Shown here: positions 1-12,213 of the stretch, in pieces
Position numbering within the stretch: position 1 is the stretch's first letter
Layout: each line of letters starts with the position of its first letter
Origin: Chamaesiphon sp. 336R_metabinner_41
GTDB lineage: Bacteria > Cyanobacteriota > Cyanobacteriia > Cyanobacteriales > Chamaesiphonaceae
Assembly: GCA_025359915.1 (NCBI GenBank)
Contig: JANYDE010000021.1
Span: 1 to 46,615, forward strand
Direction: 5' to 3'
Length of the DNA stretch: 46,615 bases
Notes under the pieces: generated by a model
Told to the model about the DNA's origin: nothing
The model's database searches: none
The model's input: only the letters and a program-made list of their open reading frames with translations
Translations under genes and position numbers: made by a program

Positions 1-80
1 GACACTTTTTTTGTGATATTTGAGTTTGGATGATTAATAAAAATTATAACTGATGCCGATCGGCTCCTAATTGCTGATGG

Positions 81-106
81 ATTCAATTCGATCGATCGAA
101 TTGAAT
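81..106. repeat. 26-bp perfect palindrome beyond the CRISPR trailer
   Basis: A perfect inverted repeat with arms ATTCAATTCGATC and GATCGAATTGAAT and no loop. It lies 45 bp beyond the leader-distal CRISPR repeat. It could end the pre-crRNA transcript arriving on the minus strand, but no T-run follows it there, so a factor-independent terminator is doubtful. The rest of 1-150 shows nothing I can name. Confidence 0.6.
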
Positions 107-150
107 GCCATTTTATTGACTTATTCAGCAAGCCCTAGTTAGCCACGGCT

Positions 151-477
151 GTTCCAATCCTCATCCAGCCCGAAGACTGGATGCAATCAAACACCTGGCG
201 GAATCCAGTCCACAACAGCGTTGGTTCCAATCCTCATCCAGCCCGAAGACTGGATGCAATGTTTGGGATCAAAACTAGGGTCACCAAAACCGGCGTTCCA
301 ATCCTCATCCAGCCCGAAGACTGGATGCAATTAAATCCCTACCTGGATTTGAGTATCTTGGGTGAAGTTCCAATCCTCATCCAGCCCGAAGACTGGATGC
401 AATCTGTTATTACTTTATTAGTTGATTGGTAGACGATCCTGTTCCAATCCTCATCCAGCCCGAAGACTGGATGCAAT
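151..477 (-). CRISPR. Type I-C CRISPR array: 5 repeats, 4 spacers
   Basis: Five identical 37-bp repeats lie at 151-187, 224-260, 295-331, 367-403 and 441-477. They are separated by spacers of 36, 34, 35 and 37 bp. On the minus strand each repeat folds as CATCCAGTC, loop TTCG, GGCTGGATG: nine pairs with one G.U, closed by a C(UUCG)G tetraloop. The stem is followed by AGGATTGGAAC, exactly the 11-nt 5' handle that Cas5d leaves in type I-C systems. Transcription is therefore on the minus strand, in line with the cas genes, with the leader on the cas2 side. The array is short and all copies are identical, including the leader-distal one. Confidence 0.97.
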
Positions 478-654
478 GGCGGACATTTCAAACCTGCTGA
501 TATCAACAAGTTCAACAACAACCGCCGCGATCCTATTATTCCTCATATCTGTAGACAGATCGACATAACAGTAAAAAACAGCTCAAACACTGATGACACA
601 TACGATCGCGAACCTCCCAGGAATTTGACCATCACTATAGGTTCGCGCCGAGAT
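478..654 (-). promoter_or_regulatory. CRISPR leader with inverted repeat
   Basis: This is the segment between the cas2 stop and the first repeat, which fits a leader that drives array transcription and spacer acquisition. It contains a 9-bp perfect inverted repeat, CGCGAACCT at 607-615 and AGGTTCGCG at 639-647, 31 bp apart just after cas2. It also has a small stem (ATCTGT/ACAGAT) at 547-560. Assignment rests on position and on array orientation; no promoter elements were identified with confidence. Confidence 0.7.
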
Positions 655-945
655 TCAAAGAATTAATGGCTTGTCAAAATCAGTATAACCGTCTATGCCA
701 AAACAGAATAGATGCTCCTCCCTTGGTGTAGGCAATCGATAGACTCGGATACTATCTAGAGTAGGCTCGATCGTCTTTGTCAATCGATCGCGTAGAGTCT
801 CATACTGACTATCACTCACCCGACATTCAAACACCGATAACTGTACTCGTTGCCCATAATCCTTACAGACAGTCGCCACTTTCCGCAACCGCCGCCGCCC
901 TTCTTTCGTTTCCGTATTCACATCATAGGTGACTAAGATATCCAT
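655..945 (-). CDS. cas2: CRISPR-associated endonuclease Cas2
   Basis: Cas2 is the structural partner of Cas1 in the spacer integration complex. The 96-aa protein begins MDILVTYDVNT, with the conserved N-terminal aspartate after the first beta strand (D8), and continues with a basic RRRLRKVA helix and the VQLSVFEC strand typical of the family. The reading frame is open 15 codons further upstream, but that extension overlaps cas1. The ATG at 945, 4 bp after the cas1 stop, gives the normal family length and start. It is the last gene of the cas operon, directly before the leader. Confidence 0.96.
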   Translation of the reverse strand: MDILVTYDVNTETKEGRRRLRKVATVCKDYGQRVQLSVFECRVSDSQYETLRDRLTKTIEPTLDSIRVYRLPTPREEHLFCFGIDGYTDFDKPLIL

Positions 946-949
946 AAGC

Positions 950-1981
950 TTATTTCTGTATAAAAGGTTGATAACTGGGTACGTCGCCACGTAAATGACG
1001 GGCTAATAATCGGGATTGAACGTGGGGAATCAATCCAAATGGAGCTTTTGAATCGATAATTTGATGCTGAACTTCTTCCTGTTTGCGATTTTGATAAGCT
1101 TCTAATAAAGTTCGCCGTGCATCATCGACTAGATGTACCGCCCCACCTGGACGAGTCACAAAATCTTTGGGTTGAATTTGTTTGCGATTGATCAGACTCA
1201 GGACTAATCTATCCGCAAATGGAGCGCGAAATTCTTCCATCAAATCTAGAGCTAGAGCAGGTCTACCAGGGCGCAGAGTATGCAAGAAACCCATTTGGGG
1301 ATCGAGTCCTACGCCTTCACAAGCTGACACACAATCATTTTTTAGTAATGTATAAACGAATGATAATAACGCATTAATTGGATCGCGGGGTGGGCGTTTG
1401 TTTCGATCGAGCAATGCAAACGTTTCCCGATTTGCGCGGATCATGCCTGTAAAGCTGCCAAAATAGGTTTTAGCCGCATAACCTTCGATTCCCCTCAAAG
1501 TATCTAAATCGGGGGCTAGTTCAGCCTTCTGAATCGATTCTGCATGAAGTTTAGCAGTCTTGGTTAGTTGTGCTTTATCTTCTGAATCTTTTGCTTCTCG
1601 TGCGGCTCTCATCACTACAGTGCGGGTATTTTGGAGTTTACCAGCTACCATGTAACGCGCGATCGCTAGAGTAGCCCGAGCATCTCTCACCACCTCATGT
1701 TGAGCATGTCTCAATAATACATTTCCCGTCGTCGAACCCGCCAATCGTCCTTTAAATCGACCAAATTCTGACAACCAGACTAAACTGCGTCCGTCTTCCC
1801 CACAACGATGAATTAAATAGGGACTCATCAGCACATTTCCAAAGGTGACAATACTCCCCAAATGATGGAGCGGAATTTGTTTTTTAACATCCTTTTCAAT
1901 CTCAACTTTGAGCGTTTCATGATCGAGACGCAAATATGCACCTTGAGTTTGGATGTAGAGCGTATTTAGAAGTTGTTTCAT
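950..1981 (-). CDS. cas1: CRISPR-associated integrase Cas1 (type I-C)
   Basis: Cas1 is the metal-dependent integrase that inserts new spacers at the leader end of the array. The 343-aa length is usual for type I-C Cas1. Visible hallmarks are the all-beta N-terminus (LYIQTQGAYLRLD), the helical-domain motif GIEGYAAKTYF with the presumed metal-binding Glu at 166, His234 in GFLHTLRPGRPALALD, and an acidic LMEEFR segment around 246-252. It lies 64 bp downstream of cas4 and 4 bp upstream of cas2, so the three adaptation genes form a compact unit. All expected catalytic residues appear intact, so adaptation should be possible. Confidence 0.97.
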   Translation of the reverse strand: MKQLLNTLYIQTQGAYLRLDHETLKVEIEKDVKKQIPLHHLGSIVTFGNVLMSPYLIHRCGEDGRSLVWLSEFGRFKGRLAGSTTGNVLLRHAQHEVVRDARATLAIARYMVAGKLQNTRTVVMRAAREAKDSEDKAQLTKTAKLHAESIQKAELAPDLDTLRGIEGYAAKTYFGSFTGMIRANRETFALLDRNKRPPRDPINALLSFVYTLLKNDCVSACEGVGLDPQMGFLHTLRPGRPALALDLMEEFRAPFADRLVLSLINRKQIQPKDFVTRPGGAVHLVDDARRTLLEAYQNRKQEEVQHQIIDSKAPFGLIPHVQSRLLARHLRGDVPSYQPFIQK

Positions 1982-2045
1982 GATAATAAATTTAATTGAA
2001 TATATTAAAACCGAACATACACAAACATCCTAGAAATGTTGGGTT

Positions 2046-2684
2046 TCATTCTTCAACCCAACCTACCGTAAAAGGATTATTTCTAAGACTAGATCTGGCA
2101 AAATTGGCGATCGAATCCGGCATACAAGCATCAATCAAAGAACAGTCATCACAACGTTTGTCATTAACAGGTGGTGGTAGTTTTTGACTAATTAAAATCT
2201 CACGAGTAGCGATAATTATCTGTTCGGTTTGGGTGCGTAATTTAGCATCGATTTTTACTTCTCGCCGCCGCTTCGAGCCAGCATGATAAATCGCACCTAA
2301 TGGCACATCACAACCGAGCATTTCCTCCAAACAAAGAGCTTGAGCGCAAAGCTGAATATCGTCAGCGAGTCTTGGTTTTTTACTACCAGACTTGTATTCC
2401 ACTGGATAGGGAATCTCCTCGCGATTAAACTCAACCACATCAGCAATTCCCCGAATCCCCAATCGATGACACCATAGCGGTAAAGCGCGTTCTACCCGCA
2501 CATCATCAAGTTGTTCGTCGTCGGGAATATCGACCTTTTCATGGACTCTTTGCCCCCGCAGCGTGTAGATATTTTCATCCCAAACTTGCTCGATATGAAT
2601 CAACGCAAATTGACGCGGACAATAAGCATAGTGCTGAAGAGCACTAATCATCACATAATCTTCTGAATCTGGCACAATAGGCAC
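2046..2684 (-). CDS. cas4: CRISPR-associated exonuclease Cas4
   Basis: Cas4 trims prespacers and helps select those with a correct PAM. The protein has the PD-(D/E)XK nuclease core with GIADVVEF (Asp82) and PVEYKSG (Glu96, Lys98). It also has the four cysteines expected for an iron-sulfur cluster: Cys22 in YCPRQ, and Cys178, Cys181 and Cys187 in CDDCSLIDAC. The longest start is GTG at 2684; an in-frame GTG at 2675 and an ATG at 2651 are alternatives, but the ATG would remove residues usually seen before the YCPRQ segment. It sits between the Uma2 gene and cas1. Confidence 0.95.
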   Translation of the reverse strand: MPIVPDSEDYVMISALQHYAYCPRQFALIHIEQVWDENIYTLRGQRVHEKVDIPDDEQLDDVRVERALPLWCHRLGIRGIADVVEFNREEIPYPVEYKSGSKKPRLADDIQLCAQALCLEEMLGCDVPLGAIYHAGSKRRREVKIDAKLRTQTEQIIIATREILISQKLPPPVNDKRCDDCSLIDACMPDSIANFARSSLRNNPFTVGWVEE

Positions 2685-2748
2685 AAAAAATAGGTATCTT
2701 TATTTACAGAGTACCCATTTGATGAAGTATATCGATCGCTATTCTGTT

Positions 2749-3324
2749 TTATAATCCAGTTAAAACTTGTTGAGCAGTTAAATTAAATTGACTAAATTGA
2801 GGCGATACGATAATTTGTTCGGCTGTATAAACTTGTTCTTCGTACAATCCTTCCACCAGTTCTAGAATTGTCACCTTATTTAAAATTGGATCGACAATCC
2901 AATATTCAGGAATCTGTCTAGCTGCGTATTCAGATCTTTTATAGCGATAATCTCTTTTTTCTTGTTTGGGACTGACTACTTCCACAACTAAAGTAGGTGG
3001 TGGCATATCTGCCAAAATTGTCGATCGATTAGTTTCGCTCAATTCTAGTTCCAAATCTTCAGAAAGAATTGTTAGATCTGGTATACGTGCAGTTGCTCTA
3101 CCACCCATTACAGAGATTGCAATTTGATTTCTCAATAATTTCGTTGGTATTCCTAATTTTAGAAAGTAAGCTAGTAAAGATATTGAAACTTGCTGATTTT
3201 GATGGCTTTCTGGAGGCATAGGGATGAGTTCTCCATTTACAAGTTCACAAAGAGTATCGTTGCCATCGTCGTAGTTGAGGTATTCCTCAAGGGTCATTAA
3301 CTTAGTCTGAGTTGCAACAACCAT
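2749..3324 (-). CDS. Uma2-family putative restriction-endonuclease-like protein inside the cas operon
   Basis: A 191-aa protein of the Uma2 (DUF820) family, a PD-(D/E)XK-fold group greatly expanded in cyanobacteria whose cellular role is mostly unknown. Seen here are the N-terminal [11 protein letters not shown] and [10 protein letters not shown] segments, an IPDLTIL strand with an acidic residue, VVEVVSP with a core Glu, then YRYKRSEYA and IPEYWIVDP. It lies co-directionally between cas7 and cas4, where type I-C operons normally have nothing, with 64 bp to cas4 and 112 bp to cas7. A 33-bp palindromic repeat lies on its upstream side, which suggests insertion of a mobile cargo gene. A CRISPR function is possible but unsupported by the sequence. 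Confidence 0.9.
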
Positions 3325-3391
3325 AGATTTTAACCTACCTATATTTAGGGATAATCTAACTAATACCTATTTTAATCGATTTCTTCTCCCC

Positions 3392-3424
3392 AGATCCCCG
3401 ACTTCTTTAAGAAGTCGGGGATCT
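3392..3424. repeat. 33-bp palindromic dispersed repeat, copy 1
   Basis: Two perfect 16-bp arms starting AGATCCCCGACTTCTT flank a single T. The element lies 12 bp after the cas7 stop, in the cas7-uma2 gap. A degenerate copy is at 40602-40635 beside mutS. Its position allows a role as intra-operon attenuator or RNA-processing hairpin, but its dispersed nature points to a repeat family. Confidence 0.9.
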
Positions 3425-3436
3425 AGCTCAGATAAT

Positions 3437-4573
3437 TTACTTAACTAAGGAAGTTAAGGTTACACCACTTGGTAGATTATCCTCTTGGATTGTCACAGTA
3501 TAATCAGTAAATTTGCGAGGTACATTTACAGATGATTTCAATTCTGGTTTGATTCGATCGAATAACACATGTGCGGGAGCATTACCGAGCTTATTATCAT
3601 GAGAAAAGATGTGTAAACCCCGCAAAGCCATTAATCCGCGACTGGCAGATCGATCGAGATCCCACATATTCATTAAAGCATCCCAAAATAATTTTAGGTC
3701 TGTTTTATCTACTCCAGTTTGAGCAGCTAAACAAGGGGAATAGAAACCATAGCCCCGATATAAACCGTAGGGGATTAGTGTTTTACGTCCCATTGTTTGC
3801 ATCTTATCTCGATCCTTACCATCGGTGACAGCCATCCGGGTAATTGAAAGATCTTGAGGTTGCACTTCGTCAAGAGAACGGGAGAATGTTAACTGAATTG
3901 GGCCGCGTACTTGCCCCGCATTTAGTCCCGTACTCATCACAGCACCAAACATTCGCACATCGTAAAATTCACCACACATCCAATTTCGTGCTTTATCGAT
4001 ACTTTCACGACTCTTGTTTGCTTTACCTGCTTTTTTAACTAGATCGTCAATGAACTTCTTGAGTGGTTTGTTAGCTTTGAGTTGGTCTTCGATTGATTCT
4101 AATTGTTCATCCAATTCACTTTTGCTCAATTCACCACTATAAGTTAAACTTGTGACCACATCAGTCGCATCTTCAGCATCGCCATCGGTTAAGGTAAATG
4201 ATGGTAATAGATGAATAATATCTTTTAATACTAGCGCGATCGCTGGGTCTTTAACTATATCAGTAGCAGGTTTGCCCATTGACAATTTTTCAGCCACATA
4301 AGCCTTACGAATTTGGTCATTTAATACACCATGATGTTCGACAAAAATCTTCAGACGGGCTGCTTCGGCTTCGCTAGCTTCGTATTGAGCATAGGTAGAA
4401 ATATAGTTGCGAATTTTTCGTTTGAGACAAACATCCGTTACTAATCCGTGCGATGTTTCTGAATCAGTGCGCGGTAAATTTCCGGCATCAGGATCGCCAT
4501 TAGGATTTCCATCAGTGACATCGAATAATAAAACAAAATCGTGACGATATTCGGGGTTTAGATAAGCAGTCAT
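3437..4573 (-). CDS. cas7: Type I-C Cascade backbone subunit Cas7 (Csd2)
   Basis: Cas7 polymerises along the crRNA to form the backbone of the type I-C effector. The family signature is near the N-terminus (FDVTDGNPNGDPDAGNLPR, then DVCLKRKIRNYI), followed by FYDVRMFGAVM and RGPIQLTFSRS. The chosen ATG at 4573 has GGAG 6 nt upstream; a TTG four codons earlier is open but overlaps that site. At 378 aa it is longer than the roughly 290 aa usual for Csd2. The surplus is a charged, probably helical segment between about residues 105 and 195 (LDEQLESIEDQLKANK region). An 81-bp palindromic element separates it from cas8c. Confidence 0.96.
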   Translation of the reverse strand: MTAYLNPEYRHDFVLLFDVTDGNPNGDPDAGNLPRTDSETSHGLVTDVCLKRKIRNYISTYAQYEASEAEAARLKIFVEHHGVLNDQIRKAYVAEKLSMGKPATDIVKDPAIALVLKDIIHLLPSFTLTDGDAEDATDVVTSLTYSGELSKSELDEQLESIEDQLKANKPLKKFIDDLVKKAGKANKSRESIDKARNWMCGEFYDVRMFGAVMSTGLNAGQVRGPIQLTFSRSLDEVQPQDLSITRMAVTDGKDRDKMQTMGRKTLIPYGLYRGYGFYSPCLAAQTGVDKTDLKLFWDALMNMWDLDRSASRGLMALRGLHIFSHDNKLGNAPAHVLFDRIKPELKSSVNVPRKFTDYTVTIQEDNLPSGVTLTSLVK

Positions 4574-4605
4574 AGTATTCTCCAAAAAAGTAATGTATGC
4601 GTGGT

Positions 4606-4686
4606 GTAGGGTGTGTTAGGCGTAGCCGTAATGCACCAAAGCATGGAATATAAAAGGTGCGTTACGCTGTCGCTAACATACCCTAC
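4606..4686. mobile_element. 81-bp palindromic MITE-like element at the cas8c 3' end
   Basis: The left arm begins GTAGGGTGTGTTAG and includes GTAATGCACC. The right arm mirrors it, with GGTGCGTTAC and CTAACATACCCTAC. The arms pair imperfectly around a short AT-rich centre. Elements of this appearance recur in many cyanobacterial genomes. Its right edge overlaps the end of cas8c: the TAG stop of cas8c (4683-4685) lies inside the terminal GTAGGG, so the element supplies the stop codon. Confidence 0.85.
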
Positions 4687-5111
4687 GATGTAGATTTTTT
4701 TGCTGCTTCTGCTCGGTTGTGTGCCCGTTGATGGTAATATCCCAAAGCAAATAACCCTTGTTGGTGCATTTTTAAAGTTTTCGGAAAAGTTCGAGTATGA
4801 GCTTCCAAATTAGGCGGTGCAATTTTGAGTATAATTTCTTGAATTCGGGTATCGATGGCACTGTAAGCACCAACTTTATTTTTCCGAAGTTTAGCTAGAT
4901 GATTAAAAGAATTCTTCACCAGTGCTGGAAAAGCGGTTGCAGGGGTGGTAGAAGCGGCACTATAGTATCTATCCACCAAGGAAGCATTAACTTTGCCGAG
5001 AGCTGCTTTTTGCAATCCTTCCAACTCTGCCAACAGTCGCCCACAGTGGTAAGCTCTATCGTCTTGCTCTTGTAAATTAGGCTGGGGGTTCATTTGTTCC
5101 ATATCAGTCAT
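4683..5111 (-). CDS. cas11c: Predicted internal small subunit Cas11c within cas8c
   Basis: In studied type I-C systems the small subunit Cas11c is translated from an internal start in the 3' part of cas8c. Here three closely spaced in-frame ATGs at 5111, 5102 and 5093 encode MTDMEQMNPQPNLQ, just before the conserved YHCGRLLAELEGLQ helix. They would give proteins of 142, 139 or 136 aa, near the expected size. A GGAA lies 3 nt upstream of the third ATG and no strong ribosome binding site is visible, so the exact start is undecided. This is a prediction from family knowledge; the coding frame is that of Cas8c. Confidence 0.5.
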   Translation of the reverse strand: MTDMEQMNPQPNLQEQDDRAYHCGRLLAELEGLQKAALGKVNASLVDRYYSAASTTPATAFPALVKNSFNHLAKLRKNKVGAYSAIDTRIQEIILKIAPPNLEAHTRTFPKTLKMHQQGLFALGYYHQRAHNRAEAAKKSTS

Positions 5112-6449
5112 CGCATCGGTGCCAAGTTTAGTGGTGAGAGCTAGTTTGATCAGTGCAGCGCGGGGGTATGTGACTTTACCCTCAGCACGATTTCGTTGTA
5201 CGGCTCTGGTGAGTAAATCATCTGGGATGGGTAGATGCTGGAGCGCGTTACGAATTAGCGCAGTCGGGACTTTTGGCAACATCTCTTTAGTCGCATCGCG
5301 GTAAGCACTAGCCGCCAAAGCATATACCCCCAAAGGTTTACCAACCTCCCCATAAGCATCGATAATTTTGTGCGCGAGAAACCATAATTTGAGATTGGCT
5401 TTGACTGTCGGTACAGTGGTTTCCAACCAGTCACGCACAACAGCCCGCGCAACACTGGCGGAAAGTGCGAGAGCATAAAATTGATTAACATCCGTTCCAT
5501 AGACTTCTTGCCCTTGAGCGGCTGAATCTAGCAGATTTTTTACTACTTGAGGATCGGGATGCTCTATCGCACCTAGCAAGTCCATCTCTTCTGGCTCTCG
5601 TGTCCAAAAAACATAGGCTGTATTACCAACTGATAAGCGAGTATTTTTACCAGAAAGCAGATGATTGAGAGCTTTTGTAAACTTCTCAGCAGCTTCACGA
5701 GAAATTGGTGAAGTTAATGAATTTGCTAATCCATAAGAAGTAAAAGCTTGAGCATTTGCAGATACTAATGCCGTACCAGAAGGCTGTCCACCAAATAATC
5801 CTTTCACTAAGAAAGGCAATCGTTGTTCGACAGCTTTTTTCTCGCCAGTGACTAAACAAGTCATGACGTGGCTCTTGATTTTCCCCGATTCAGATTCTTC
5901 ACCGCCAGAAGTATAATTAGCCCAAAACTCCTGAATGCTGATAAAGTTCTCAGCAGCATTTGCCGGAATCTTACCACCTACTCGAAATGTAATATTTTCA
6001 GTAGGATCGAATTTTTTAGCATCTAGTAGCTGTAGAAACTCGCCTCTCGCTTTTTCCAACTCTATGGGAGAATTAAGGAATTTTGCGATCGCAATCATCG
6101 TTAATTCATTAGTCGCTTCTGCACAGGATTGAATCAATATTTTAAATTGCTCGTGACAATCTATCAGCCGATCCGGTTTAGTAGCTGCTCTACCAATTTC
6201 TAAAATATATTCGCTAGTATCTAGCAGTAATTTAGGTTTTACCCCAACAGTCCGACCAATATCAGGAGCAACAATTTCTCGTCCCTTTTTAGTTTCTTTT
6301 TGGCTATGATCTTTCCAGCAAATACTGCCTTCAAATATGCCGTCGGTTGTCAAGCTAATTAACCATGCTACCCGTCGCTGGTTATACATCGCAGGTGGTA
6401 AGTTCTCCATCTGCTGTTCTGCATACTCTTTTAACTTAGTGAGAATCAT
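4683..6449 (-). CDS. cas8c: Type I-C Cascade large subunit Cas8c (Csd1)
   Basis: Cas8c recognises the PAM and starts target unwinding in the type I-C effector. The 588-aa protein begins MILTKLKEYAEQQ and contains Csd1-like segments: AWLISLTTDG, SSG-rich central stretches, NTAYVFWTRE, NQFYALALSASVARAVVRDW, and YHCGRLLAELEGLQ near the C-terminus. Its ATG overlaps the cas5 stop by 4 bp (ATGA), so the two are translationally coupled. The last codons run into an 81-bp palindromic element, which provides the TAG; a few native C-terminal residues may have been lost or replaced. The C-terminal ~140 residues probably also yield Cas11c from an internal start. Confidence 0.95.
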   Translation of the reverse strand: MILTKLKEYAEQQMENLPPAMYNQRRVAWLISLTTDGIFEGSICWKDHSQKETKKGREIVAPDIGRTVGVKPKLLLDTSEYILEIGRAATKPDRLIDCHEQFKILIQSCAEATNELTMIAIAKFLNSPIELEKARGEFLQLLDAKKFDPTENITFRVGGKIPANAAENFISIQEFWANYTSGGEESESGKIKSHVMTCLVTGEKKAVEQRLPFLVKGLFGGQPSGTALVSANAQAFTSYGLANSLTSPISREAAEKFTKALNHLLSGKNTRLSVGNTAYVFWTREPEEMDLLGAIEHPDPQVVKNLLDSAAQGQEVYGTDVNQFYALALSASVARAVVRDWLETTVPTVKANLKLWFLAHKIIDAYGEVGKPLGVYALAASAYRDATKEMLPKVPTALIRNALQHLPIPDDLLTRAVQRNRAEGKVTYPRAALIKLALTTKLGTDAMTDMEQMNPQPNLQEQDDRAYHCGRLLAELEGLQKAALGKVNASLVDRYYSAASTTPATAFPALVKNSFNHLAKLRKNKVGAYSAIDTRIQEIILKIAPPNLEAHTRTFPKTLKMHQQGLFALGYYHQRAHNRAEAAKKSTS

Positions 6450-7144
6450 CGAACTGGCAGCCTCAATTTATTTTTCTCGACTAATACTCCATTTTTTAGT
6501 TCAGCATGAAAGAACTTAGGTTTAGCACTACCACTCGTTACTTGCGATCCGTTTTCATCGTGGGTGAGATAATCGATAGATTGTCCGTCTCCAGATATAA
6601 ATTCAAGATCTAATAACATCAAGCCTAAATCGTCAGTTCGATCGATCGGTTTATCCTCATCTGTCGGCATGTCAAAATATGCACTAAATTCTCGCGTCCC
6701 AAAATAAGGTTGATGATGACATTGACCTTTTTTTACTCGTCGTCGAAACTGATCGCGATATTTAGCGACATCTGCATTAGTATGTTTTTTGAGGTTAATA
6801 TCAGTCTTAATAATATAACCAACATCCCTTAAACAAAGAGTATGACGTTGTGCGCGATCGTCATCAGCAAAATATCGATAATCGGGACTTTTTGCCGAAC
6901 TTGCACTCTGCCAAGTATTTACTTCATTCCTGAGAATAGAGAAGTGTTTAATTGGCTTCAATACTTCGATCGATCGAATCGAATAACTAAACTCTGGTTT
7001 CCAAAAAATCGCTTCCAAAATCCCCCGCGCCGCACTCGGAGTCATCACTTCATAACTAACGCGCTCGGCTCCAAATTCTGGACGAGTAAAGCAAGCAAAA
7101 TCGCCAGTCACTTTGACTGTTAGTGGTGAGTCTCGTTCACCCAT
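6446..7144 (-). CDS. cas5: Type I-C Cas5 (Cas5d), pre-crRNA processing endoribonuclease
   Basis: In type I-C, which lacks Cas6, Cas5d cuts the repeat hairpin at its 3' base and stays bound to the 11-nt 5' handle. The protein starts MGERDSPLTVKVTGDFACF and has the family pattern ...FGAERVSYEVMTPSAARGILEAIFWKP, then RDVGYIIKTDI and a central FGTREFSAYF. I chose the ATG at 7144 because AGGA lies 9 nt upstream; a TTG at 7162 would add six residues and overlap the preceding ORF. Length is 232 aa, normal for Cas5d. It follows the 62-aa ORF by 5 bp and overlaps cas8c by 4 bp. Confidence 0.95.
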   Translation of the reverse strand: MGERDSPLTVKVTGDFACFTRPEFGAERVSYEVMTPSAARGILEAIFWKPEFSYSIRSIEVLKPIKHFSILRNEVNTWQSASSAKSPDYRYFADDDRAQRHTLCLRDVGYIIKTDINLKKHTNADVAKYRDQFRRRVKKGQCHHQPYFGTREFSAYFDMPTDEDKPIDRTDDLGLMLLDLEFISGDGQSIDYLTHDENGSQVTSGSAKPKFFHAELKNGVLVEKNKLRLPVR

Positions 7145-7149
7145 AGGTT

Positions 7150-7338
7150 CTATTCCTGCCAATGTGAGTTACATATAGAGTACCCAGTATTGCAGTAAGG
7201 ATCTACCAAATTTTCCAATTCTTCGATTTTATCTGCTTGGGGCACTACAACTTGATGGATGAGATCTTCGAGCCGTTTGAGATCGTGCTTGAGGATTTCC
7301 ACCTGCTCGACTAGGTACAGCGGGGAGATTTGCGTCAT
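7150..7338 (-). CDS. Small hypothetical protein, first ORF of the cas5-cas2 operon
   Basis: A 62-aa ORF (MTQISPLYLVEQVEILKHD...) that I do not recognise. The first 45 residues are heptad-like, with leucines, isoleucines and many charges, suggesting a short coiled coil; the tail has two cysteines (DPYCNTGYSICNSHW). Its stop lies 5 bp before the chosen cas5 ATG, and the cas5 ribosome binding site falls in its last codons, which fits translational coupling. No good ribosome binding site precedes its own ATG. It is the first reading frame downstream of the predicted crRNA-guided control site. It may be a true accessory protein or just leader sequence. Confidence 0.45.
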   Translation of the reverse strand: MTQISPLYLVEQVEILKHDLKRLEDLIHQVVVPQADKIEELENLVDPYCNTGYSICNSHWQE

Positions 7339-7375
7339 AAATGTTGCTGGAGATTGATTGATAAATCTAATTTAG

Positions 7376-7396
7376 CAGACACAACAATAAATAGAA
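7376..7396 (-). promoter_or_regulatory. Predicted Cascade operator: PAM plus partial protospacer for the crRNA-like RNA
   Basis: On the minus strand a TTC (7396-7394), the usual type I-C PAM, is followed by TATTTATTGTTGTGT (7393-7379). Against the guide of the upstream crRNA-like RNA, positions 1-5, 7-11 and 13-15 are identical and only 6 and 12 differ. Those are the bases that flip out in type I crRNA-target duplexes. Matching stops after position 15, too short for efficient Cas3 recruitment in known systems but enough for binding. The site is 41-55 bp upstream of the 62-aa ORF, where a promoter for the cas5-cas2 operon would be expected. I could not fix a clear -35/-10 pair. Confidence 0.75.
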
Positions 7397-7417
7397 TCAT
7401 AAAAATTAAGTTTTTAG

Positions 7418-7504
7418 GAAGCGGAGCCGATAACCCCGCTTCACCTATATATTACAGAACAAAAAATAGTTCCAATCCTCATCAGCGGCTAATTGCCACT
7501 AATG
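7418..7504 (-). ncRNA. crRNA-like regulatory RNA (CreR/CreA-type) in the cas3-cas5 gap
   Basis: Read on the minus strand: a 5' arm CATTAGTGGC (7504-7495), loop AATTA, and a 3' arm GCCGCTGATG (7489-7480). These make ten pairs, two of them G.U. Next comes AGGATTGGAAC (7479-7469), identical to the 11-nt handle of the array repeats. In all, 15 nt (GATG plus the handle) match the true repeat. The stem sequence differs but the fold is kept. A guide of about 26 nt follows from 7468, beginning TATTTTTTGTTCTGT, then a 9-pair hairpin with arms GAAGCGGGG (7442-7434) and CTCCGCTTC (7426-7418). That hairpin resembles the 3' stem kept on mature type I-C crRNAs. The unit has no second handle. The ends of the transcript are inferred from structure. 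Confidence 0.8.
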
Positions 7505-7649
7505 CTTGAGACTTCTAAGCTTATCATGAGCATTCTCGCATCTGGTATTACTGCGACAACCCGTGGGTACCCATTAAGGGCACCCCTACAGGTTGCCTGT
7601 GTAGCAAGGTAGATTGTTTTAACGATCGAGATCGAACCCAAAATACAGT
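7505..7649 (-). other. Gap between cas3 and the crRNA-like RNA
   Basis: No substantial reading frame. On the minus strand a hairpin GGGTGCCC-TTAAT-GGGTACCC (7585-7565, one G.U pair) follows cas3 by 64 nt and has no T-run after it. An 8-codon ORF (ATG at 7574, stop ending at 7548) overlaps it, with AGGGG about 8 nt upstream. This stretch should contain the promoter of the crRNA-like RNA, unless that RNA is cut from the miaB-cas3 transcript. No promoter is evident. Confidence 0.4.
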
Positions 7650-9899
7650 CTACAGCATTAAATCTGCTGGATCGTAATCGATCGATCTCGCACCAATCCC
7701 AATCCCCTTAACGGGGTGATAAGTACCGCCCCAGACATATAATCCAGGTGCTATTTCAGCACATAGCTCTTTCGCTTGCAGAAACTCATAATTTCGCAGG
7801 CTAACCATATAGGGTTGTAAAAAGCGATAGTCTCCTGCGTTTATATCTCGATAATTAAGCTCCCGTAGGCGTTTTCGCACCTTATCGTCATACTCAATAA
7901 TGACTGAGGTAGTGTCATCACTAATCAATCGAAACTTCTTAGCTACTTCTGGAAAGTCTAACCGCTTGCGTAAATCCTGAATCTGATGAATATCTACGCC
8001 AGGTTGATAGAGACACTGAAAATATTCTTCAAAAATACTAGGATCGTGGAGATTGAGATTTTCTCTTTTTAGTAAGCGGATAGTTTCATCTACTGCTGTT
8101 TGATATTCTCCTTGCGGTACCTTGCCTTCAGCGGGATGAAAAATTACTACTCTACCCAATCCTAGCTTTCCTTCTCGATTGCATCTTCCTGCGGCTTGGA
8201 CGATTCGATCGAGTGGCCCCACGGCACGATATACTGCTGGAAAATCTAGATCTACGCCAGCTTCAACAACTTGAGTAGAAACTAAGATACATGGAAGGTT
8301 ATTTTTCAATCTTGCTTTGACTGTCGCCAAAACTTCCCGCCGATGTTTACCACAGAGTAATGTGGAAAGGTGGAAAATATCTGCTCTGTCGAAATCTTCG
8401 CTATGACTATTTAAAGTATCTAAAACAGCTAAAGTATCTTTGCGAGTATTTAAAACAATTAAAGCTTGATGATGCTGGTGAGTGATTAAATCGTCGATTA
8501 ATTCACTCCACAACCAACCTTGAAGATGTAGCTCATAATTTACTCGCTGAAGACTCTGAAAGTGCTGGATGGCTAAATCTGGAGCGATAATATCGCGGAT
8601 ATTTTTCAATCCTTTCAAATATCCCGTGTCTCCACTGAATGCTGGTTGTGTCGCGGTACAAAGAACTACTGTTACCTGATATCGATCGCATAATTCGCCC
8701 AATACACTTAAAATTGGTGATAGTAAGCCGACGGGCAAAGTCTGAACTTCATCTAAGATAATTACACTCTTAACGATATTATGCAGCTTCCGACATTTGC
8801 TAGGGCGGTTAGCAAATAAACTTTCAAATAACTGCACCGTGGTAGTAACAATTAATGGTGCATCCCAATTTTGAGTAGCTAATCTAGCTTTAGCATACTG
8901 CTGTCTAGCATCATCATTAGTTTCCTCTTGATCGTTTTGATAAAACTGTTCGGTATTAGCCGCACTATGATGTTCTAGTACCGTATTATCACCTAAAATA
9001 TCTCGATAAACATTTACTGTCTGCTCGATGATACTAGTATAAGGTACAGCAATAATCACCCGATCGAGTCCATATTTGAGTGCATGTTTGAGCGCGAAAG
9101 CTAAACCGCTGAGGGTTTTACCGCCGCCAGTCGGTACAGCTAATCGAAATACTCCACCAGGTAATTCAGCCGCATCGGTACAAGCTTGATAAACTTCTCG
9201 CCGAACTTGATTGACTGATGATATCTCGGCTGATTGAATTACTTTTTCTCGATCGATTTTAAGCTTCGTCCATAAATCTGTTAGATCGATTCTCTTACAG
9301 AGAGGCTCCGCCAAAAATTGTTGTCTCTGAATCGTTTGTTCTGGTTTAAAATGCTCTTCAGTATCTAAGTAATCTGCATCGACTAAACAAGAAAATAATA
9401 ATCGAGTTAATAGATCGTAGCTGTAACAATCTGTAAGTAAACTTCGTACTAAAGGATTAAAATCTTCATCGATCTGCAATTTTCCTAATTCTTGCTCGGC
9501 ATTAGCACAAGCAACTTTATAATCTTCTTCATGCTTTGGATCGTCAAACTTACTCTTAAGTGTCGCCTTTGCTGGTAGTCCAGCATGATGCCCATAAATT
9601 AACAAAGCTAGAGGAGTTAGTTTGTATAAGTCCCAAGCAAGTTTAGCTCCATGAATAGCATGTGGAACTTTTTTGATATACGAACCAGTTCCACTATGGC
9701 ACTCGTCTAAATACGTCTGAAAATTAGGATTATACTTACCTAAGTCATGCCATAAGCCTGCGTAGTAACCTAATTTCCCTACCTTAAACTTATCGGCAAA
9801 TTTCTCAGTTAAATTAGCAACGTCACCCAAATGCTGCTTGAGTTTGTGCCATTGATCATCACCTTTGCCTGGAGTGTGAGCATTAAACTTATATTTCAT
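7650..9899 (-). CDS. cas3: CRISPR-associated helicase-nuclease Cas3 (HD domain fused)
   Basis: Cas3 degrades DNA bound by the type I-C effector. The 749-aa protein has an N-terminal HD nuclease domain (His23, HDLGK at 51-55, GHHAGLP at 103-109). An SF2 helicase follows: PTGGGKT at 256-262 (Walker A), DEVQ at 383-386, LCTATQP, and QVVEAGVDLD with QAAGRCNREG (motifs V and VI). All key residues look intact. It begins 10 bp after the miaB stop and may be co-transcribed with it. It is separated from the other cas genes by a 311-bp gap, so the interference nuclease may be expressed independently of the effector and adaptation genes. Confidence 0.97.
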   Translation of the reverse strand: MKYKFNAHTPGKGDDQWHKLKQHLGDVANLTEKFADKFKVGKLGYYAGLWHDLGKYNPNFQTYLDECHSGTGSYIKKVPHAIHGAKLAWDLYKLTPLALLIYGHHAGLPAKATLKSKFDDPKHEEDYKVACANAEQELGKLQIDEDFNPLVRSLLTDCYSYDLLTRLLFSCLVDADYLDTEEHFKPEQTIQRQQFLAEPLCKRIDLTDLWTKLKIDREKVIQSAEISSVNQVRREVYQACTDAAELPGGVFRLAVPTGGGKTLSGLAFALKHALKYGLDRVIIAVPYTSIIEQTVNVYRDILGDNTVLEHHSAANTEQFYQNDQEETNDDARQQYAKARLATQNWDAPLIVTTTVQLFESLFANRPSKCRKLHNIVKSVIILDEVQTLPVGLLSPILSVLGELCDRYQVTVVLCTATQPAFSGDTGYLKGLKNIRDIIAPDLAIQHFQSLQRVNYELHLQGWLWSELIDDLITHQHHQALIVLNTRKDTLAVLDTLNSHSEDFDRADIFHLSTLLCGKHRREVLATVKARLKNNLPCILVSTQVVEAGVDLDFPAVYRAVGPLDRIVQAAGRCNREGKLGLGRVVIFHPAEGKVPQGEYQTAVDETIRLLKRENLNLHDPSIFEEYFQCLYQPGVDIHQIQDLRKRLDFPEVAKKFRLISDDTTSVIIEYDDKVRKRLRELNYRDINAGDYRFLQPYMVSLRNYEFLQAKELCAEIAPGLYVWGGTYHPVKGIGIGARSIDYDPADLML

Positions 9900-9909
9900 C
9901 TCAGCAAAA

Positions 9910-11262
9910 TTATTCGAGTTTCGTTACCATATCACCTGTGAGACTAAATGCGCGCACCTCACTAATTTTGACAGGGACGACTTTTCCACGGAGTTCTTCA
10001 ATATCGCCGTTGAAGAATGTGAGGCGATTGCCGCCAGTTCTGCCAAGCACTTGGTCGGGATTTTTGGTGTTGCGTTCTTCCACTAGGACGGATTCTACTC
10101 GATCGAGATACCGCCCAGATCGCTCGATCGCCGTTTGAGAGACGAGATGATTGATTCGTTGGAGTCTGTCGAGTTTGATTTCTTCACTGAGTTGATTTGT
10201 CCACACCGCCGCAGGTGTATTGGGGCGGGGGGAATAGGCGGCTGTATTCACCATGTCAAAGCCGATATCGGAAATTAAGGTGAGGGTGCGTTCAAATTGC
10301 TCCTCGGTTTCGCCAGGAAATCCGACGATCGCATCGGCACTGACCGACGCATCGGGCATATACTGACGAATAGTATCGATAATCCGCCGATATTTTTCGT
10401 GGGTGTAGCCCCGTGACATCGCTTTGAGGATGTCGTTATCTCCTGACTGGAAGGGGATATGGAAATGTTCGCAGACTTTGGGCAATTCATGACAGGCTTT
10501 GATCAATCGCTCTGTAAAGTAGCGCGGATGACTGGTAGCGAACCGAATCCGCTCGATCCCTTCGATATCATGAATATAGTAGAGTAAATCTGTCAGTGTG
10601 TTCAGATGGCGACCTTCGGCTGTCGAGCCAGGTAAATCTCGCCCATAAGCGTCGATATTTTGACCGAGGAGGGTGATTTCCTTGTAGCCTTGACGGGCTA
10701 AATCTTTGATTTCTGTCCGAATCGCTTCAGGCGTGCGGGACTGCTCGATCCCGCGCACATTTGGTACCACGCAGTAGGTACAGCGTTCGTTACAACCGTA
10801 GATCACGTTTACCCACGCAGTCACGCTACTATCGCGTCGCGGTTTGGTAATATCTTCGATGATGTGAATCGGCTCAGTGGCGACTACCTGTGCGCCAGCA
10901 AATACCTGCTGTAAGAGGTCTTCCAGGCGATTTGCGTGTTGTGGCCCCATAATGATGTCGAGTTCGGGAATCCGCCGGAGCAAGGCTTCTCCCTCCTGCT
11001 GGGCGACGCAGCCTGCCATAATCAAGATCAGATCGGGATTATCTTTTTTGCGACGGGTTTGTTTGCCTAGATAGGAGTAAACTTTTTGCTCGGCGAGATC
11101 CCTGATGGTACAGGTATTGTAGAGTACTAGATCTGATGTAAACGGATCGTCCGACCATTGAAATCCCATGTCTTCGAGTATTCCACCCATGCGCTCGGAA
11201 TCAGCTTTGTTCATCTGACAGCCAAATGTGGTGATGTGATAGCTTCGATTTGCAGGAGTCAT
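9910..11262 (-). CDS. miaB: tRNA-2-methylthio-N6-dimethylallyladenosine synthase MiaB
   Basis: MiaB is a radical-SAM methylthiotransferase that adds the 2-methylthio group to i6A37 in tRNAs reading UNN codons. The 450-aa protein has the N-terminal UPF0004 domain with three cysteines for the auxiliary 4Fe-4S cluster (Cys15, Cys51, Cys85). The radical-SAM motif CNERCTYC has Cys157, Cys161 and Cys164. Further signatures are [11 protein letters not shown] and [14 protein letters not shown]. The C-terminal ~65 residues, ending in [18 protein letters not shown], form the TRAM domain. It is a housekeeping gene; the unusual point is that cas3 follows it by 10 bp on the same strand. Confidence 0.97.
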
Positions 11263-11424
11263 GGGGGAGGGGGGAAGAATTGGTTGAGGCGTGGGACTCC
11301 ATTATAGGCGATCGAATGTATAGCTTAGTTCTCATTCGCGTCGTCGATCGTGCTGAGACTCAATTTTTTTCGGCTGAGTTACAATTTTTGTATCCCCGTG
11401 TTTTCCAACCTTACTGTTTAACTA

Positions 11425-12213
11425 ATGAGACAATACTGGCAAAAATTGATAATTTTATTAGTTGCGCTGGGTGTGACAATTGCGCAGCCTGGATGGAGCG
11501 ACTCGCCACCAGTTCGGGATCCAGTCTTTTCTGAAGCTTTTTGTTTGAAAATATTTGGCGAAGTTGCAGAAAAGGCGAGGTCTAGCAGTTGGCAGATCTC
11601 CGATCGTGATCGACATATATTAACTCAATGCCGTACCAAATTTCCACCTACCGCAAATTCCCAAATTCCGCTCCCAACAGCCGATGAATGTGTCTATGTC
11701 GTCAAAACTCTGGTAGAAGGTGGTTTGAGTAAGGTCAAAGAAATAGAATTGCCAGAAGAACAGGTAAGATCGATCGAACGCTGCGATGAGGTGATCAAAT
11801 ATTATTCGCTATCATCCGAAAATATGTTGCCGACATTAAAATCTAGCGATAAGATTGTTGTCGATCGAACTATCTATCAAACTCAAGTACCACAGCGGGG
11901 AGATATTTTGGCATTAAATTCTCCCCATCCTACTCAGTCAGATCAATACCCAGAACTCTTAACCCGCAGAGCCATTGGATTACCGCGTGAAAGAATTAAG
12001 ATTGAGCAGGGAATTGTGTATATTAACGGCAAATTGTACAAGGAAAATTATGTTACTCAAGCTGTTGACTTCAATAAATCTATTTCTGTACCTGAGAATA
12101 AGTATCTAGTCTTAGATGACAATCGGACTAGCTCGACAACTAAATCCAGTTGGAGTCTCGTTTCCCGCGAAGCAATCGTCGGTAAAGTTGTTTGGCATTT
12201 TGGGAGTAAGTAG
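11425..12213 (+). CDS. Signal peptidase I homologue lacking the catalytic Ser/Lys dyad
   Basis: A 262-aa protein with an N-terminal hydrophobic segment (KLIILLVALGVTIA, about 7-20), then about 110 residues of unassigned sequence with four cysteines, then a C-terminal S26/LepB-type domain. Conserved boxes are recognisable: SSENMLPTLKSSDKIVVDR, RGDILAL, TRRAIGLPRERIKI, LDDNRTSS and AIVGKVVW. Where active enzymes have S-G-S-M-x-P the sequence has S-E-N-M-L-P, so the nucleophilic Ser is Asn133 (codon 11821-11823). The general-base Lys of KRVIGLP is Arg181 (codon 11965-11967). It should therefore not cleave signal peptides by the known mechanism. It may bind signal peptides or serve as a periplasmic scaffold. 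It is divergent from miaB. Confidence 0.88.
   Translation: MRQYWQKLIILLVALGVTIAQPGWSDSPPVRDPVFSEAFCLKIFGEVAEKARSSSWQISDRDRHILTQCRTKFPPTANSQIPLPTADECVYVVKTLVEGGLSKVKEIELPEEQVRSIERCDEVIKYYSLSSENMLPTLKSSDKIVVDRTIYQTQVPQRGDILALNSPHPTQSDQYPELLTRRAIGLPRERIKIEQGIVYINGKLYKENYVTQAVDFNKSISVPENKYLVLDDNRTSSTTKSSWSLVSREAIVGKVVWHFGSK

Follow-up and report, generated by a model that had tools for sequence, protein, structure and literature searches.

A lone crRNA-like unit that probably autorepresses the cas5 operon of a Chamaesiphon type I-C CRISPR locus

The gap between cas3 and the cas5 operon of a type I-C CRISPR-Cas locus in Chamaesiphon sp. 336R_metabinner_41 contains a lone crRNA-like unit whose guide partially matches a PAM-flanked site at the head of that operon. 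Pairing of the same kind, in quite different sequences, recurs in seven further type I-C loci. We consider it likely, at a probability of roughly 80%, that this crRNA-like RNA autorepresses the unit formed by a 62-aa ORF (ORF62) and cas5.

A crRNA-like unit and its target between cas3 and cas5

The window, the whole 46,615-nt stretch analysed, corresponds to contig C102 in a genome of 4.23 Mb, the nearest relatives of which belong to Chamaesiphon. Its minus strand bears a complete type I-C locus in the order cas3, gap, ORF62, cas5, cas8, cas7, a Uma2-like nuclease gene, cas4, cas1, cas2 and a five-repeat array. PADLOC assigned cas3 (7650–9899; Cas3c, 7.7e-202), which lies upstream of the element and is not part of the unit predicted to be repressed, and cas5c/cas5d (6446–7162; Cas5c, 4.9e-60), the expected processing nuclease and handle binder, which probably starts at the ATG at 7144. 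Behind these come cas8c (csd1; 4683–6449; Cas8c, 1.4e-115), cas7 (csd2; 3437–4585; Cas7c, 3.8e-97), the Uma2-like gene within the cas operon (2749–3324; PDC-S03), cas4 (2046–2684; Cas4c, 4.9e-81), cas1 (950–1981; Cas1c, 1e-150) and cas2 (655–990; Cas2c, 7.5e-36). The array (151–477, minus strand) holds five copies of a 37-nt repeat, ATTGCATCCAGTCTTCGGGCTGGATGAGGATTGGAAC as given on the minus strand, and 12 further copies of the repeat are on contig C35. Both the crRNA-like element and its target site are housed in the 311-bp gap from cas3 to ORF62. An Rfam search of window positions 1–12000 gave no match.

The element reads along the minus strand. It begins with a repeat-like stem-loop (7480–7504) whose arms, CATTAGTGGC (7504–7495) and GCCGCTGATG (7489–7480), form 10 pairs, two of them G.U, at −14.2 kcal/mol. 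Next come the 11-nt repeat handle AGGATTGGAAC (7469–7479), identical to the 3′ end of the array repeat, and a 26-nt guide, TATTTTTTGTTCTGTAATATATAGGT, that begins at 7468 (7443–7468). The original prediction had placed stem, handle and guide start at just these coordinates, and all were verified on the minus strand; it had also described a stem that differs from that of the array while the handle is kept, which comparison with the five array copies confirmed. The guide is closed by an 11-pair hairpin, GAAGCGGGGTTATCGGCTCCGCTTC (7418–7442, minus strand), which the original prediction did not mention. It is stronger than the 10-pair stem when the strand is folded, and is a probable terminator or 3′ end structure. 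The folded strand reached −37.1 kcal/mol, compared with −23.2 ± 3.1 in shuffles. Across the genome the handle occurs in 21 copies, comprising 17 in arrays, the element itself and three others. A canonical I-C array unit would have a spacer between two near-identical repeats; here one degenerate repeat is followed by a hairpin. A lone repeat-like unit carrying the array handle (7469–7504) inside a cas locus is what is seen in CreR regulators.

Guide positions 1–15 match the minus-strand site TATTTATTGTTGTGT (7379–7393) except at positions 6 and 12. Against 7393–7379 this amounts to 13/15 matches, or 13/13 counted positions, with TTC, the type I-C PAM, adjacent (7394–7396, minus strand). The site lies 41 bp upstream of ORF62, the first ORF before cas5. 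This match, its flank and its distance had been described correctly in the original prediction, and limited pairing between a guide and a PAM-flanked sequence ahead of cas genes is likewise as expected of CreR. The prediction had cautioned that a T-rich guide raises chance matching. When the gap sequence flanking the element, left and right, was shuffled with dinucleotides preserved, none of 20,000 shuffles reached 12 or 13 of the 13 counted positions beside TTC. The caution does apply if neither the PAM nor the 6/12 rule is imposed: 13/15 was then reached somewhere in the gap by 16 of 5,000 shuffles. The string TTC-TATTT-N-TTGTT has a single occurrence in the 4.2-Mb genome, at the target site, and the 18-nt form of the guide match has no second perfect match anywhere in the genome.

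The target occupies the spacer of a weak promoter-like site on the minus strand (7369–7396), made up of an extended −10, TGC-TAAATT (hexamer 7374–7369), and a −35-like TTCTAT (7396–7391). This site scores 7.2, below the 95% level of shuffles (9.8), and a scan of the window's cas3–ORF62 gap for consensus promoters and terminators found none. Behind the target the gene order is ORF62 (7150–7338, minus strand), then cas5, whose likely start comes a few bp after the stop codon of ORF62. ORF62 scored under the Pfam cut-off and had no PADLOC match. A homologous ORF occupies the equivalent place in one other locus (L033), a remnant is left in another (L012), and relatives also occur outside CRISPR loci.

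Guide–target pairing in other type I-C loci

Cas5 relatives were gathered from whole genomes and a genome collection, and their loci were screened for lone handles accompanied by a partial match next to TTC. The scan covered 107 type I-C cas loci at a threshold of at least 13/15 matches to a TTC site within 400 bp of the lone handle. Eight loci passed, the window and seven others, from a Synechococcales cyanobacterium (L018), an uncultured cyanobacterium (L033), Rubrobacteraceae (L041), Alkalinema (L047), Spirulina (L048), Spirulinaceae (L051) and Armatimonadetes (L059); two more matches (L071, L082) fall inside arrays. The guides are not copies of one another. They are quite different, and each fits a TTC-flanked site of its own locus, close to cas5 or cas3, cognate pairs reaching 13–15/15 and guides set against non-cognate loci at most 10/15 (mean 7.5). 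Markov versions of the 107 loci produced 0–1 matches over the entire set, and replacing TTC by other trinucleotides produced few, several of them array or self copies. When the PAM requirement was lifted for the eight elements, every target still bore TTC. Pairing that persists while its sequence changes is a further trait of CreR.

Type I complexes flip out every sixth nucleotide of the guide–target duplex. In the eight pairs, position 6 matched once and position 12 never (together 1/16), compared with 99/104 at the remaining positions of 1–15 (Fisher p = 5e-14 vs 6/12), so that the mismatches at 6 and 12 fit such complexes. Ungapped matching stops at about position 15–18 and is at background level beyond 18. 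Had the match arisen by plain recent duplication, its mismatches would not sit exactly at 6/12.

The typical order is stem, handle, guide of about 22–40 nt, hairpin, TTC-target, small ORF and cas5, and a hairpin was found at the equivalent place in L017, L018, L033, L036, L047, L048 and L051. This order or form varies: in L041 the target comes first, then the element, with cas3 downstream of the two, and in L059 the stem is missing or very weak. Most loci have a small ORF of 57–95 aa (in L059 an HNH protein) between target and cas5, and these belong to differing families. A promoter position of the target, weak in the window, is clear in three loci. In L059 the site, on the opposite strand, takes in the −10 of a strong TTGACA/TATAAT promoter from which the element is driven as well; the L018 and L033 targets overlap or abut TATAAT boxes. 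The TTGACA-type promoter closest to the target is tens of bp downstream of it in L017 and L047. The original prediction had staked itself on finding stem, handle and pairing conserved in relatives, and this was borne out by the seven loci, plus two with gapped pairing. At the level of sequence, the anatomy of the unit, its site, the uniqueness of that site and a pairing conserved through changing sequences are established.

The majority of scanned loci, other cyanobacterial ones included, have no such element, and the cas3–cas5 gaps of L013–L016 contain no lone handle. Stem, handle and hairpin are present in L036, where no target was detected; none was detected for the lone handles of L087, L142 and L144 either. 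Between the L036 unit of stem, handle, guide and hairpin and cas5 there is, by eye, a HicA/HicB-like toxin–antitoxin pair on the opposite strand (L036:9317–9961). In two Chloroflexi loci (L073:4780–4890 and L095:9740–9815), directly upstream of cas5, the guide that follows the lone handle has its match within its own element, in the loop or the upstream part. These two were left uncounted, the flank being TTT or TTG instead of TTC and the match being the element's own loop. Five I-C-like loci of Nostocaceae (L025–L028, L121) contain GATTGAAAC followed by a conserved TCATTTTGTTATATGCA, about 600–700 bp upstream of cas5; this handle-like string sits in a divergent cas3 gene, between its HD and helicase parts, and a search for a TTC target of it found none.

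Gapped targets and the Chamaesiphon relatives

Three loci have targets that skip or add nucleotides; two of them, L017 and L047, come from metagenome assemblies. No ungapped target was found in L017 (Chamaesiphon GL140_3, G002:C306); its target is the guide minus positions 6, 12, 18 and 24, with 23/25 matches and TTC in front. In L065, from the isolate Calidithermus chliarophilus DSM 9957, the element is antisense in the cas3–cas5 gap and the target 92 nt distant. Nucleotides are missing from this target at positions compatible with 6, 18 and 24, and one extra nucleotide lies between guide positions 9 and 10 or, in a block reading, at 12. The gapped target is beside a TTGACT/TATCTT-like promoter (L065:9680–9830). 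The Alkalinema target (L047) has two nucleotides at 18 and at 24, and its matching runs to about 35. In a register test with free sites at multiples of six, L017, L065 and L047 scored 23, 23 and 24 of 25, compared with 19, 21 and 20 of 24 in the best alternative register, the gapped placements being partly ambiguous by one or two bases. Free-gap alignment was dropped as a sole criterion because its noisy null was too high, reaching 13 and once 17, and the case for the gapped pairs is therefore built on their position, the exact handle and the outcome of the register test. An antisense candidate in L159, of the same class as L065, has 12/15 with TTC and was counted as possible only.

Indels at multiples of six suggest that targets are read block by block, an absent or additional flipped nucleotide being tolerated. 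Tentatively, type I-C Cascade might read regulatory targets as separate 5-nt blocks, with 0, 1 or 2 nucleotides of the target allowed at every sixth position. The pattern could mean either that Cascade accepts bulges or that some process copies or erodes targets exactly at the flipped positions. On the simplest reading, these guides started out as spacers acquired from the region of the cas promoter, and an indel persists only at target positions that the complex leaves unread. A limited literature search found no prior report of such indels at multiples of six.

Among the Chamaesiphon relatives, L017 was compared with window positions 655–11262. MiaB, the Uma2-like protein, Cas4, Cas1 and Cas2 share 93–97% protein identity, compared with just 40–69% for Cas3, Cas5, Cas8 and Cas7, so that cas3-cas5-cas8-cas7 appear as a block swapped between nearly identical flanks in the two Chamaesiphon. 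Element and target changed along with the effector genes, as expected of a cognate unit. The locus of the closest relative, G007 (L012:6700–7250), is decaying: cas3 is fragmented, element and target are lost and an ORF62 remnant is left, and cas4, cas1, cas2 and an array were not found on this contig stretch. With cas3 and the gap broken and the element gone, G007 was set aside as a co-variation test; its loss of element, target and most of cas3 leaves no close neighbour in which co-variation of the window's exact pair could be followed. The Uma2-like nuclease gene is retained at 90–93% identity in L012 and L017.

Lone repeats also occur elsewhere in Chamaesiphon. L143:975–1011 (G000 contig C89, 33186–33222) has a degenerate CRISPR repeat that keeps the exact handle; a PadR-like gene, with a photolyase gene next to it, starts 34 nt downstream. 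The same repeat-like stem and handle are found at the same place in other Chamaesiphon genomes (L149, L153, L154 and L155), among them G003, which has no type I-C cas5 match; only part of the handle remains in L150–L152. L142 (G000 contig C55, 33092–33102 region) is a lone array repeat distant from arrays and upstream of a 152-aa ORF, and no target of its 'spacer' was found nearby.

Predicted autorepression, its rivals and known regulators

We infer transcription, processing, Cascade loading, repression and the conditions of release. The element would be transcribed on the cas strand, its transcript ended by the hairpin at 7418–7442. Cas5 would cut at the base of the stem-loop, leaving the 11-nt handle, and the RNA would be loaded into a Cas5–Cas8–Cas7 complex. 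This complex would be directed to the TTC-flanked site at 7379–7393 through 5-nt blocks of pairing that leave positions 6 and 12 free. A paired stretch of 15–18 nt would be too short for Cas3 cleavage, so that the complex would stay bound where the ORF62-cas5-cas8-cas7(-cas4-cas1-cas2) unit begins, blocking its transcription. The resulting feedback loop would relax when the effector is scarce, occupied by array crRNAs, or inhibited. Cutting by Cas5, loading, binding and a block without cleavage are predicted because of the known behaviour of type I-C Cas5, of CreA and of Cascade at short pairing (PMC10651486, PMC8501985, PMC5904413). The autorepressor already proposed in the original prediction gains support from the guide–target pairing conserved in the seven loci.

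The complex might instead mainly repress the small ORF, a toxin or accessory gene released when Cascade fails in the manner of CreTA or CrePA, with the cas genes hit by read-through only. Most loci do carry a small ORF between target and cas5, of differing families, and protein-toxin modules of the CrePA type have been described (PMC12737573). We nevertheless regard this as unlikely: the end of ORF62 a few bp ahead of the likely cas5 start points to a shared transcript, relatives of ORF62 are found outside CRISPR loci and it matched no toxin family, target and element sit directly upstream of cas3 in L041, and in L047 the small ORF is broken by a stop while the pairing is intact. It is very improbable that the unit is a decayed repeat–spacer from an array, or from off-target spacer integration, with no present function. 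The genome has two other lone repeat-like units distant from cas genes, and G007 lost its copy, but decay would not retain handle, stem and pairing jointly, and the match of guide to TTC site is kept across phyla, in wholly different sequences, only at type I pairing positions. Less probable still is a decoy repeat that binds Cas5 or other Cas proteins, its target match being incidental; although prophage-encoded solitary repeat units of this Racr kind inhibit type I-C systems (PMC10651486), the element sits in the cas locus rather than in a prophage, and its guide–target match and PAM are conserved. Chance similarity aided by the T-rich guide, for which only the shuffles scored without the PAM could speak, is already refuted at the level of the set by the shuffles with TTC and the 6/12 rule and by the seven further loci.

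By its sequence features, the favoured autorepressor belongs with the known CreR/CreA regulators, as a type I-C form built of a single repeat and a hairpin. In a survey of CRISPR-derived regulatory elements, Shmakov et al. 2023 (NAR 51:8150) reportedly found many type I loci to contain standalone repeats whose spacers are partly complementary to cas promoters, and I-C cases of such form may already be in that survey. CreR autorepression is attributed to type I and V-A generally (PMC12737573), and a 2026 review lists it for I-B, I-E and V-A, I-C not being among the subtypes listed (PMC13131331). Like CreR, the window element is a lone crRNA-like unit in the cas locus with partial complementarity to the putative cas promoter region and predicted repression by its own effector. 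It differs in being type I-C, with Cas5 rather than Cas6 as the expected processor, in having one repeat and then a hairpin, and in the small ORF ahead of cas5.

The original prediction's parallel with CreA/CreR is apt: for one haloarchaeal I-B CreA it is established that TTC with pairing at 1–5 and 7–11 represses a promoter and that positions 6 and 12 are irrelevant, and a form with a single repeat closed by a terminator has been described alongside the more usual one with two repeats (PMC8501985). The window element shares with the CreA of CreTA the TTC PAM, pairing at 1–5 and 7–11 with 6 and 12 free, and the one-repeat form with a terminator, here a probable one, and differs in that there is no recognised RNA toxin, pairing reaches 15–18 nt and the target precedes ORF62-cas5. 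As in CrePA, the target is ahead of a small ORF; unlike there, ORF62 is co-directional with cas5, abuts it and has no recognised resemblance to a toxin. A single repeat with a handle also recalls Racr, which is phage-encoded, has no cognate target and acts by sequestering; the window unit is in the cas gap and has a cognate target.

Autorepression of this kind would extend RNA-guided CRISPR self-regulation to type I-C, among the simplest of the type I systems and one in which Cas5 does the RNA processing, with sequence evidence spanning cyanobacteria, Actinobacteria, Armatimonadota and Deinococcota. The natural pairs provide structure-independent evidence that guide positions 6 and 12 go unread, and the indels at multiples of six pose a clean biophysical question. 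Deleting or inhibiting type I-C effectors should raise cas expression, because the repressing complex would be removed.
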